The notes under the pieces are model-generated. The model was not told where the DNA came from. It saw only the letters and a list, made by a program, of their open reading frames with translations, and did not search any database. From positions 1-10,910 of the forward strand of contig JAISLX010000001.1 in the NCBI GenBank assembly GCA_031277045.1: DNA of 10,910 nucleotides, given 5' to 3'. Each line of letters opens with the position of its first letter. Positions within the stretch are counted from its first letter, which is position 1. Source of the DNA: Treponema sp. Its GTDB lineage: Bacteria > Spirochaetota > Spirochaetia > Treponematales > Breznakiellaceae. Of the stretch, positions 1-10,910 are shown piece by piece. The position numbers and the translations under genes are program-made.

Positions 1-23
1 AGCCCGGGGAGGCCGGATCGTGA
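1..23 (+). CDS. Possible 3' end of an upstream gene (azlC expected)
   Basis: The frame starting at base 3 reads PGEAGS and then a TGA at 21-23, which overlaps the GTG start of azlD as GTGA. azlC usually sits immediately upstream of azlD and often overlaps it, so this could be the last six codons of azlC. The fragment is far too short to recognise; the call is inferred from gene order only. Confidence 0.2.
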
Positions 24-403
24 ATACCCCGGGTCAGGCTTTGGGCTTTGTTTTTGCCATGGGCGTGGTGATTCTTTTCTGCCGGGCCTTTCCGTTTTTG
101 TTTTTCAGGGAGAAAAACCGGGCCGCCGGGGACGCCCTTGACGCCGGTACGGATAAGGCCGAAGGCGGCCGCCGGAAAACCAGGGCACTCCTCAACTTTG
201 TCGAACGGATAGTACCCCCCGCGGCTATGACGGTGCTGGCCTTTAACAGCCTGGCGGGCGCCGTGCGGGAAGACCTCCACCGGAACCTCCCCATCTTCGC
301 CGCCGCCGCTTTTACCGCCCTGGTCCACGTATGGAAGCGGAATTCCCTGATCAGTATCTTCGGCGGGACGGCGCTTTATATGATTTTACAGCGAATAATA
401 TGA
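20..403 (+). CDS. azlD: AzlD-family branched-chain amino acid transport protein
   Basis: Small membrane protein of 127 residues, the AzlD partner of an AzlCD-type exporter for branched-chain amino acids or related compounds. Seen: a hydrophobic N-terminal segment (about residues 7-30) with the family-like RAFPFLFF, then VPPAAMTVLAFN (about 65-76), a segment around FAAAAFTALVHVWKRN, and a C-terminal NSLISIFGGTALYMIL that closely fits the family's WKRNxLxSIxGGTxLYM end. The GTG start is chosen because GGGGAGG lies seven bases upstream and the codon overlaps a TGA as GTGA, suggesting coupling to a gene outside the window. Odd point: residues about 31-60 form an enlarged, charged loop (many K, R, D, E, G) between the first and second hydrophobic segments, making the protein longer than the common ~105-110. 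Its TGA is the first part of the following hairpin. Substrate is not readable from sequence. Confidence 0.82.
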   Translation: MNTPGQALGFVFAMGVVILFCRAFPFLFFREKNRAAGDALDAGTDKAEGGRRKTRALLNFVERIVPPAAMTVLAFNSLAGAVREDLHRNLPIFAAAAFTALVHVWKRNSLISIFGGTALYMILQRII

Positions 404-9007: not shown

Positions 9008-10234
9008 TTATGACCGGTAATCCCCGTTGATTTTGACGTAATCGTAACTTAAGTCGCAGCCCCAGGCGGCGGCGGTCCCGGTTCCCCCGCCGGCCAGATC
9101 AATACGGATTTCGATCTCATCCTGGGAAAGGATCCGCCTGGCGTCTTCTTCGGAGAAGGGAACCGGCGCGCCGGCAGCGCAGACCAAAATTTCACCGGCG
9201 GCGCCGGCAAAGCGCACACCGGCAGCGCCGGGATCAAAATCCACGCCGGCGTAACCCAAGGCGCAGAGGACCCGGCCCCAGTTGGCGTCCGCGCCAAAAC
9301 AGGCGGCCTTGACCAGGCTGGAAGACGCCACCGCCCTGGCAAGGAGTTCCGCGGCCCCCTCGTTTGCCGCGCCTTTTACCGTTACGGTAACAAGCTTGGT
9401 GGCCCCCTCCCCGTCCTGGGCCACAGCCCTGGCAAGTTTAACGCAGAGGGCCTCCAGGGCTTCTGCGAACAGGGCGTAATCCGGCCCTTCGGCGTTAATG
9501 GGGACATTCCCCGCCTCCCCGTTCGCCATGACGATGACCATATCGTTGGTGGAAGTATCCCCGTCCACGGTAACCCGGTTAAACGAGCGCCGTACCGCCC
9601 GGCGCAGGGCCCGGTCCAGCAGTTCCCGGCTTATCGCCGCGTCGGTCGTAAGAAAACAAAGCATCGTGGCCATGCTGGGGTGTATCATTCCGGAACCCTT
9701 AACCATACCCCCCAGACGCGGAGTTTTGCCGCCAATCTCAATCTCCAGGGCGGCGGCCTTTTTCCGGGTATCGGTAGTCATAATCGCCTCCAGGGCCGCC
9801 TCATGACCGGCGGGACCGGGGCGAATGCTGTCCGCCAGGGAACTGACGCTGCTCTCAATGGCGGCGATGGGCAAGGGTACGCCAATAACGCCGGTGGAAG
9901 CCACCGCCACCTCGTTCGGGTTGATGGCGAACTCCCCGGCGGCTAACTCCGCCATCCGGCGGGCGGCAGCCAGCCCCGCTTCCCCGGTACAGGCGTTGGC
10001 GTTCCCCGAATTGGCGATCACCGCCCGCAGGATACCGCCCGCGATATGTTCCTGAGTTACCAGGACCGGGGCGGCCTTAACCCGGTTCGTGGTAAACATA
10101 GCCGCCGCCGCGCAGGGCTTATCCGCGTAAATTAAGGCCAGGTCCCGCTTTTGGGAACCAGCTTTAATACCGCACCAAATGCCCCCCGCCCTGAATCCCC
10201 CGGGGGCGCAAACCCCGCCTTCGATTTCCCGCAT
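9008..10234 (-). CDS. argJ: Bifunctional glutamate N-acetyltransferase / amino-acid acetyltransferase (ArgJ)
   Basis: Moves the acetyl group from N-acetylornithine to glutamate (cyclic route); bifunctional forms also use acetyl-CoA. It is an Ntn-fold precursor that cleaves itself. Seen in 408 residues: IEGGVCAPGGFRAGGIWCGIK at the start, FTTNRVKAAPV, VIANSGNANACTG (oxyanion/substrate loop), STGVIGVPLP, and KGSGMIHPSMATMLCFLTTDA, where cleavage precedes nucleophile Thr190. The beta chain has VDGDTSTNDMV and ends WGCDLSYDYVKINGDYRS, a normal C terminus. Start: ATG at 10234 matches the family N terminus; a TTG six codons upstream (10252) is possible but has no RBS, while the ATG has only GAGG very close by. 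First gene of argJ-argB-argD; whether it also makes acetylglutamate from acetyl-CoA is inferred from the absence of another synthase here. Confidence 0.94.
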   Translation of the reverse strand: MREIEGGVCAPGGFRAGGIWCGIKAGSQKRDLALIYADKPCAAAAMFTTNRVKAAPVLVTQEHIAGGILRAVIANSGNANACTGEAGLAAARRMAELAAGEFAINPNEVAVASTGVIGVPLPIAAIESSVSSLADSIRPGPAGHEAALEAIMTTDTRKKAAALEIEIGGKTPRLGGMVKGSGMIHPSMATMLCFLTTDAAISRELLDRALRRAVRRSFNRVTVDGDTSTNDMVIVMANGEAGNVPINAEGPDYALFAEALEALCVKLARAVAQDGEGATKLVTVTVKGAANEGAAELLARAVASSSLVKAACFGADANWGRVLCALGYAGVDFDPGAAGVRFAGAAGEILVCAAGAPVPFSEEDARRILSQDEIEIRIDLAGGGTGTAAAWGCDLSYDYVKINGDYRS

Positions 10235-10240
10235 AACCTC

Positions 10241-10324
10241 ATTAAAAAGCAAAACGGGACCATTGTATATACGGCCCGTTAAGCGGGCGGGCGCGCCGGT
10301 TTTACCGGGCTTTGGCCTGCCCGG
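10241..10324 (-). promoter_or_regulatory. Candidate attenuator in the argJ leader
   Basis: Reading the - strand, three GC hairpins lie before argJ. The first is CCGGGC/GCCCGG (10324-10305). The second is GCCCG-CTTAA-CGGGC (10288-10274). The third is AACGGG+CC / GG+CCCGTT with a one-base bulge (10280-10253), followed directly by TTTGCTTTTT. The 3' arm of the second overlaps the 5' arm of the third, so they cannot form together: an antiterminator/terminator arrangement. No ArgR-like box was recognised. Function is inferred from architecture only. Confidence 0.4.
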
Positions 10325-10337
10325 ATTTGATTTTCAT
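10302..10337 (-). CDS. Possible leader peptide upstream of argJ
   Basis: ATG at 10337 reads MKIKSGQAKAR and stops, with the final Arg codon inside the 3' arm of the first leader hairpin. An alternative ATG at 10347, in another frame, gives 22 residues ending ARPPA, with its stop in the loop of the second hairpin. Neither has a clear RBS and there is no run of Arg codons, so either may be chance; they matter only if the leader is an attenuator. Confidence 0.15.
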   Translation of the reverse strand: MKIKSGQAKAR

Positions 10338-10365
10338 GGGTATACATGGCCCGCGTTTTTATCTA

Positions 10366-10397
10366 TTGACAAGCCCCCCAAACTCTGCTAGTATAAT
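10366..10397 (+). promoter_or_regulatory. Strong sigma70-type promoter
   Basis: TTGACA (10366-10371) is a perfect -35. TAGTAT (10389-10394) follows at 17 bases, and overlapping TATAAT (10392-10397) at 20 bases. It points rightward into a leader with AAGGAGGGG (10412-10420) and ATG at 10424. The same bases contain TTGTCA and TATACT on the - strand, so part of this region may also serve argJ. Confidence 0.65.
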
Positions 10398-10423
10398 GAC
10401 TGATTAAAAACAAGGAGGGGACA

Positions 10424-10507
10424 ATGACAGGCTTTTCGCCTACGGCCGCGCCTAAATGTGTTCCTCGTTTTTTAGTATGTAGTACCCCCCCCCCCCCCAA
10501 CATATAG
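10424..10507 (+). CDS. Short ORF with poly-C tract, possible phase-variable start
   Basis: ATG preceded by AAGGAGGGG at four-base spacing and by the strong promoter at 10366-10397. In the sequence given it codes 27 residues (MTGFSPTAAPKCVPRF..., then four Pro from the C run) and stops at 10507. The run of 14 C (10485-10498) occupies codons about 21-25. With 13 (or 16) C the frame would continue without a stop to the window end, through the 21-bp repeats, reading units such as AFDSSAT and AFTPFAA. That is the layout of a contingency gene in the off state. Against it: the repeat is read more conservatively on the other strand, and no family is recognised. It could also be a leader, a gene remnant or a sequencing error in the homopolymer. 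Confidence 0.35.
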   Translation: MTGFSPTAAPKCVPRFLVCSTPPPPNI

Positions 10508-10910
10508 CGTAGTTTTAGTAACAGATACCCCATACATAGCGGATTTTGTTATATTCGCCATAGCTCCTGCCGTATCCGCCGCGGCTTTTGACTCATCCGC
10601 CACAGCTTTTGATTCATCCGCCACAGCTTTTATGCCATTCGCCATAGCTTTTGACTCATCCGCCGTGGCTTTTACGCCATTCGCCGCGGCTTTTGACTCA
10701 TCCGCCACAGCTTTTATGCCATTCGCCACGGCTTTTAACCCATCCGCCGCGGCTTTTGATTCATTCGCCGCGGCTTTTACGCTATTCGCCACGGCTTTTG
10801 ATTCATCCGCCATAGCTTTTACGCTATTCGCCACAGCTTTTAACTCATCCGCCCCGGCGTCAGGAACATTCGCCGGAGCTGTTTGGCTTCTCGATACACC
10901 TGCCACAACA
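10472..10910 (-). CDS. Heptad-repeat coiled-coil protein, C-terminal part
   Basis: Open frame entering from the right edge and ending at a TAA at 10472; a GTG at 10906 could be the start, but the frame is open to the edge, so I treat it as partial. About 15 consecutive seven-residue units read A-[D/N]-x-[S/V/I/L]-K-A-[V/A/M], for example ADESKAV and ANGIKAV, with Lys in nearly every unit. Placing S/V/I/L at position a and V/A/M at d gives a regular Ala-rich coiled coil. The tail TKTTLYVGGGGGTTY includes five Gly encoded by the G14 tract. Variation between units is mostly conservative (D/N, E/G/S, V/A/M), which favours this strand over the other as coding. No signal peptide or known family can be named from this part. 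No RBS can be seen. It converges on the + promoter and short ORF. Confidence 0.5.
   Translation of the reverse strand, partial: VVAGVSRSQTAPANVPDAGADELKAVANSVKAMADESKAVANSVKAAANESKAAADGLKAVANGIKAVADESKAAANGVKATADESKAMANGIKAVADESKAVADESKAAADTAGAMANITKSAMYGVSVTKTTLYVGGGGGTTY
10485..10498. repeat. Homopolymer of 14 C
   Basis: An uninterrupted C14 (G14 on -), much longer than any other run in the window (next is G9 at 5871-5879). It lies inside two overlapping reading frames on opposite strands, and each frame changes outcome with one base gained or lost. Confidence 0.95.
10554..10889. repeat. 21-bp tandem repeat, 16 units
   Basis: Sixteen units of exactly 21 bp with consensus TCCGCCACAGCTTTTGACTCA on +, with no indels; the first and last two units are the most diverged. 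Units alternate between a GACTCATCC type and an ACGCCATTC type, so part of the array has a 42-bp period. The length is a multiple of three, so it keeps a frame on each strand. Confidence 0.95.

Follow-up and report, generated by a model that had tools for sequence, protein, structure and literature searches.

A C14 tract probably switches the frame of a short leader ORF on and off ahead of an unstudied treponeme gene family

Introduction

Contingency genes of the intragenic poly-G/C type, as in Neisseria, Campylobacter, and Helicobacter, carry the tract within an ORF and switch by changing its reading frame. As a rule, the ORF that is switched in these genera encodes a functional protein. The nearest precedent for the locus described here is the pil1 leader of Streptococcus gallolyticus, in which GCAGA repeats make a leader peptide longer or shorter and thereby affect termination (PMC3894217). 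The poly-G tracts of the Treponema pallidum tpr genes and tp0126 lie in promoters and have variable lengths linked to gene expression, and the primer table of the same report also includes tracts inside ORFs (PMC7864442).

Here, we describe the end of a 10,910-nt stretch of Treponema DNA (the window), in which a probable contingency locus of a familiar general type is arranged in a new way. We found no description of this arrangement in the treponeme, termite, or phase variation literature, among the matches listed and judging by titles and the beginnings of abstracts. As in pil1, a simple sequence repeat (SSR) lies within a leader ORF, and, we propose, the frame sets how far ribosomes reach and downstream genes respond. 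The pil1 repeat unit is a pentanucleotide and is accompanied by one terminator hairpin, whereas here there are poly-C or 7-nt repeats and a 21-bp array; unlike in pil1, the stop codon usually overlaps the next start codon in closer relatives of the window. The SSR-bearing leader ORF stands between a promoter and a gene in these relatives; the window's own gene would lie beyond its edge. The locus shares with T. pallidum a homopolymeric tract in a treponeme but has it 90 nt downstream of the -10 element and inside an ORF, a position that excludes the poly-G-in-promoter type. Its tract is placed in an ORF, whose frame it would switch as in the Neisseria, Campylobacter, and Helicobacter genes.

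Results

Layout of the window

On the minus strand, the window carries biosynthetic genes; Pfam matches to ArgJ and AA_kinase place argJ and a kinase resembling argB among them. The nearest relatives of argJ (60 to 77% identity) were found in 13 Treponema, Spirochaetaceae, and Spirochaetia genomes, many with bin names that we take to be those of termite-gut projects. In several relatives (for example, L001, L003 to L006, and L062), the stretch directly upstream of argJ is presumably the end of ArgC, judging by motif; in the window (10252 to 10910), the putative phase-variable leader sits at that place. The first ORF of the window (2 to 403) ends in WKRNSLISIFGGTALYMILQRII, and by eye a closely similar end directly adjoins argJ upstream in L002, indicating that gene order near argJ differs. 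Rfam families and tRNAs gave no matches, and a reading as an RNA of either kind was ruled out.

The plus-strand promoter, Shine-Dalgarno sequence, ATG, C14 tract, stop, and array all fall within the last 545 bases of the window. The features are as follows.

10366..10394, plus strand: sigma-70-type promoter, TTGACA-17-TAGTAT (read directly; also in relatives)
10412..10420, plus strand: Shine-Dalgarno sequence AAGGAGGGG, 3 nt ahead of the ATG at 10424 (read directly)
10424..10507, plus strand: 27-codon leader ORF of the assembled (OFF) sequence; its stop, TAG at 10505-10507, precedes the array
10485..10498, plus strand: C14 tract, proposed slipped-strand switch (read directly; C11 to C21 upstream of the array in relatives)
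10503..10512, plus strand: frame gate TATAGCGTAG, with TAG in two frames (10505-10507 and 10510-10512) and the third open
10553..10858, plus strand: 21-bp (7-codon) repeat array, open in the gate frame (TRF)
10846..10906, plus strand: array end and tail, whose 61 nt align ungapped with L194 between -77 and -16 relative to the extrapolated start of a family gene
10472..10906, minus strand: ORF of KAVADES heptads, 144 codons, spanning array and tract; judged to mirror the array in antisense and not to be a gene

The promoter consists of TTGACA (10366-10371), a 17-bp spacer, and TAGTAT (10389-10394); an alternative -10 hexamer, TATAAT, starts 2 nt beyond TAGTAT and has a spacer of 19. With 10 of 12 matches and a TG ahead of the -10, it was the sole site in a scan of 9900 to 10910, where shuffled sequences give an expectation of 0.9, and by itself it is not beyond chance. 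Together with the relatives, it is: a promoter scoring at least 10 of 12 lay no more than 200 bp upstream of the repeat at 11 of 19 loci including the window (10 of 18 relatives), compared with 0.51 expected, and reverse-strand promoters of the same quality occurred at none of the 19. This count was made without L196 and L205, whose contigs begin in the repeat, and L220, whose C tract lies 1.3 kb upstream. Because promoters decide between the strands, we prefer the plus strand, as had the sequence-only reading. The promoter stands 119 nt before the tract in the window and 117 to 148 nt before it in six other C-tract loci. In L197, L201, and L202, which have 7-nt repeats, the ATG stands 6 nt past the -10, which resembles leaderless mRNAs.

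The elements from promoter to stop could all be read directly, as first reported. With 14 C's, translation halts at 10507, the OFF state claimed for the assembled sequence; the frame for 13 C's, translated as is with nothing joined, has no stop from 10500 to the window edge. The second-longest homopolymer run in the window is G9. The C14 tract is a simple repeat whose unit is not divisible by 3, and it lies in a region that we expect to be translated. The N terminus MNKPYYAPH is common to L181 and L184; the N terminus of the window's leader shows no signal peptide by eye (no tool was used). None of 4682 candidates for the plus-frame translation reached E 0.001, and Pfam gave no match at E 1, consistent with the earlier remark that no named family is recognizable. 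At the DNA level, 10330 to 10910 matched 37 of 195 genomes (family of G002), chiefly via the array or the C tract.

The gate TATAGCGTAG begins 4 nt past C14, and its open third frame reads Y-S-V. A C run followed by TATAGCGTAG was found at 13 places in 11 of the 195 genomes, compared with 0 for the reversed control; the motif was first spotted by eye in loci, some of which are among the 13 places. Including the window, 5 of 14 gate loci had a promoter (at least 10 of 12 matches, within 200 bp) and none had one in reverse, several of the contigs being short. Only three gate loci (the window, L240, and L244) run into arrays, with heptad repeats; others precede different genes, with N termini that look lipoprotein-like by eye in L242, L247, and L248. 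These three and L249 have a C tract and TATAGCGTAG leader before lipoprotein-like or secreted proteins and no 21-bp array, and we read them as a second cargo class that may use the same switch. The nearest complete analogue of the window arrangement is G082:C203, where C8, gate, 21-bp array, and family gene (41% identity, E 1.4e-49) follow in that order. Its gate-frame ORF extends about 45 nt beyond the gene start, as extrapolated from tblastn. A promoter was not found there, nor did any Shine-Dalgarno start satisfy the search criteria.

A gene family behind 21-bp arrays

At several matched loci in relatives, a C tract leads to a 21-bp array and then to a conserved gene starting MSNDWLP. This family of about 238 amino acids had matches in 118 of the 195 related genomes, often many in each, with at least 16 places in the genome that has the most; in the majority of genomes no more than 14 candidates were scored, which makes the per-genome counts lower bounds. 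Three members had no match in Pfam or NCBIfam at E 0.1, and a PDB sequence search with the 238-amino-acid protein gave nothing better than E 0.47. In a protein database, 342 proteins matched the family; among the 120 listed, names that bear an organism were Treponema or Spirochaetaceae, and annotations were mostly "hypothetical protein," with two "head-tail adaptor." An AlphaFold model built with 50 relatives (mean pLDDT, 81.8; pTM, 0.55) has helices in residues up to 101 and mainly strands after. Foldseek returned no hit to this model at E 0.001 or better; its top 50 hits were chiefly receptors that contain FN3, with a best E of 1.7e-3 and a TM-score of about 0.3 to the query. The model thus suggests helices and a weakly FN3-like domain. 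Among ORF-bearing stretches behind family genes (L151 to L180 and L111 to L147), 9 of 24 had a lipobox-like N terminus, with three places double-counted (identical places, L127/L151, L120/L163, and L133/L160).

We fetched 60 of the roughly 150 family places, chosen mostly for a complete N terminus and upstream sequence. A period-21 array ended within 300 bp upstream of 52 of these 60 genes, a figure that holds for that selection, and 8 copies had none within this distance. Arrays of at least three copies were present in 50 of 60 upstream regions and in 1 of 13 background loci (169 kb). That sole background array lies in L007 at 13493 to 13604 and has 5.3 copies. The 21-bp arrays are not exclusive to this family: approached from the arrays, a family gene was present at 11 of 31 loci, some of them the same place twice (L111/L138, L114/L135, L115/L134, L116/L144, and L122/L137) and several others cut by contig ends. 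The 10 family-less array loci with flank had a lipoprotein-like gene within 250 nt in three cases (L114, L132, and L149), another ORF in one, and none by our criteria in six.

In the window, TRF called the array at 10574 to 10858 with 13.6 copies; the earlier suggestion that a 21-bp repeat explains part of the downstream openness is supported. Unit sequences vary widely between loci, as do the repeat residues, and they are unlike even within genome G033 (L182, L184, L201, and L203). The window tail aligned to L194 with a z of 7.1 and to L192 (-77 to -26) with a z of 5.6, gene starts being extrapolated; the first 21 nt or so of the 61-nt alignment are array, and the top scorer, L189 (z, 8.5), matches the array part only. 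From the alignment to L194, the window edge should be about 12 nt before a family gene, whose start is thus probably just beyond the edge.

Reading frames and the repeat ORF

We evaluated which frames were open from -240 to -30 of the gene in 35 copies with at least 60% identity, dropping L199 and L221, where no start was found. Frame +2 was open in 23, +1 in 5, 0 in 3, and none in 9 (P value = 3.9e-6 for the preference, assuming independence of the 31). In 16 of the 23, the +2 frame stopped 5 to 14 nt inside the family gene. Below 60% identity (23 copies), +2 was not favored (+2, 4; +1, 2; 0, 6). Among 24 arrays (at least 60% identity, indel-free by TRF, at least four units, each unit at least half consensus-like), 18 were stop-free in +2, 8 in 0, and 6 in +1, and 15 in the mirror minus frame; stop avoidance therefore does not separate the strands (18 versus 15 of 24, P value = 0.53). 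In +2, the third codon position was the least variable, and S/(S+N) was lowest at 0.232, tied with the minus mirror. These results indicate no purifying selection on the array peptide, and we rejected a conserved array peptide.

States could be called at 16 loci: 5 were ON and 11, including the window, were OFF, close to the one third expected for a frame switch, so that both frames are found among homologous loci. Starts were set by eye for 15 of the 20 relatives that have a C or 7-nt repeat, L182, L196, L205, L215, and L229 being left out; L218 and L236, which have no array, were judged by the end of the ORF.

The sequence-only reading took the 13-C frame for a variable ORF of about 160 codons, possibly a surface antigen. 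The contingency layout it described held up; the ORF itself is more likely a leader, because the array amino acids are not conserved, no signal peptide is visible by eye, and the end of the frame usually overlaps the start of a separate gene in the closer relatives. It is accordingly unlikely, in our judgment, that the heptapeptide-repeat ORF encodes the product proper, as a plus-strand phase-variable repeat protein with the downstream gene as operon partner. Such a protein would agree with the long frame open to the window edge, with the shared MNKPYYAPH, and with +2 being stop-free in 18 of 24 arrays and, level with the mirror, richest in nonsynonymous changes, as expected if the product diversifies; it agrees poorly with repeat residues that vary among loci, with the empty Pfam and homolog searches, and with a frame that in 16 of 23 copies stops just inside the next gene.

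Array structure, tract statistics, and the minus strand

We compared the folding of 44 arrays, including the window, with that of column-permuted versions. The real arrays folded better overall: the mean z was -1.69, with 16 below -2 and none above 1; the window array reached only -0.93. Several array units read arm-loop-arm, with about 7 nt for each part. Terminator-like sites were in no clear excess in three leaders ahead of other genes, numbering 1, 1, and 2, compared with 1.0, 0.8, and 1.0 expected. A dyad test on 47 arrays, which is a weak test, gave a mild excess (mean z, 0.71; p of 0.05 or less in 4). This excess, and a period of 21 (two helical turns) that is kept while sequences differ, could suit an array that acts as DNA, with tandem iteron-like dyad sites for a regulator and translation incidental. 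We hold this improbable given the frame preference and the stop/start overlap; units that are unlike even among the copies of one genome also argue against a single binding site.

Within 1 kb upstream of the 60 family genes, C tracts occurred in 12 and 7-nt repeats of 9 to 17 copies in 8, the other 40 having neither; of these 40, one had a G12 and another only three copies of a 7-mer. The 7-nt repeats (GGCTCAC, GGCTCCC, and CAAGCCC) replace poly-C in L191, L196, L197, L201, L202, L203, L205, and L236 and occupy the same place in the layout, in keeping with the contingency arrangement first proposed. The sequence upstream of family genes (80,567 bp) contained 14 C runs and 1 G run of at least 9 and eight 7-nt repeats of at least eight copies; the corresponding background figures (13 argJ loci, 169,465 bp) were 0, 6, and 0. 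Some G runs in relatives sit at contig starts, where artefacts would be expected; this would suit a C tract that is neutral or was produced by assembly, and an array that is a functionless minisatellite. This account has little to recommend it given the 14-to-1 excess of C over G, the similar placement of tracts behind promoters, the 7-nt repeats in the same place, and a gate motif that recurs when its control does not.

Two other loci carry poly-C on the opposite strand (G19 at 17547-17565 of L008 and G17 at 17568-17584 of L011) just upstream of ORFs with exported-looking N termini by eye, and no array. These tracts are candidates for further switches.

None of 869 candidates for the minus ORF reached E 0.001; its nine Pfam matches were all under the curated cutoff, and its translation matched 51 of 195 genomes, often with stops. 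A minus-strand gene, encoding a coiled-coil-like KAVADES protein with C-terminal residues switched by a G14 near its 3' end, would use all 144 codons across array and tract, would fit the coinciding wobble positions of the two strands and the 15 mirror-open arrays, and would recall the homopolymer C-terminal switching reported for Helicobacter canadensis (PMC2823697), but we rejected it as very improbable given the lack of homologs, a frame that in relatives must begin near or inside the family gene, and promoters that, over the 31 family copies with at least 60% identity and enough flank, numbered 0 on the minus strand at the gene side and 11 on the plus strand (1.4 expected).

Discussion

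We found the parts of a switchable leader, their frames, their recurrence among relatives, and a preferred strand. We consider it reasonably likely that the assembly shows a phase-variable contingency locus in its OFF state, with the 13-C frame as the leader of a family gene past the edge. The window would then end within the leader: a sigma-70 promoter and an ATG led by a Shine-Dalgarno sequence would launch a plus-strand ORF, and about 20 codons in, C14 would gain or lose C's through slipped-strand mispairing, with TATAGCGTAG just past it halting two of three frames. In the open frame, ribosomes would traverse the 21-bp array and reach the gene of about 238 codons that, as relatives suggest, starts beyond the edge. 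Array translation may keep the mRNA open and deliver ribosomes to the overlapping start codon, through either translational coupling or relief of attenuation; without it, expression would drop. We infer both that the gene depends on translation of the leader and that hairpins play a part.

More tentatively, and with doubts that outweigh our confidence, we suggest a modular treponeme phase switch made of a tract, TATAGCGTAG, and a hairpin-forming 21-bp array that is stop-free and in other respects unconstrained in sequence, in which translating the array, and not its peptide, activates the next gene, with many such genes per cell (the FN3-like family and lipoproteins). These loci suggest that an array can retain period, place, and frame but not sequence, perhaps because being translated is its function. 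If this is true, these treponemes would have a large, little-studied set of switchable genes, with ON and OFF states that could be read from genomes.
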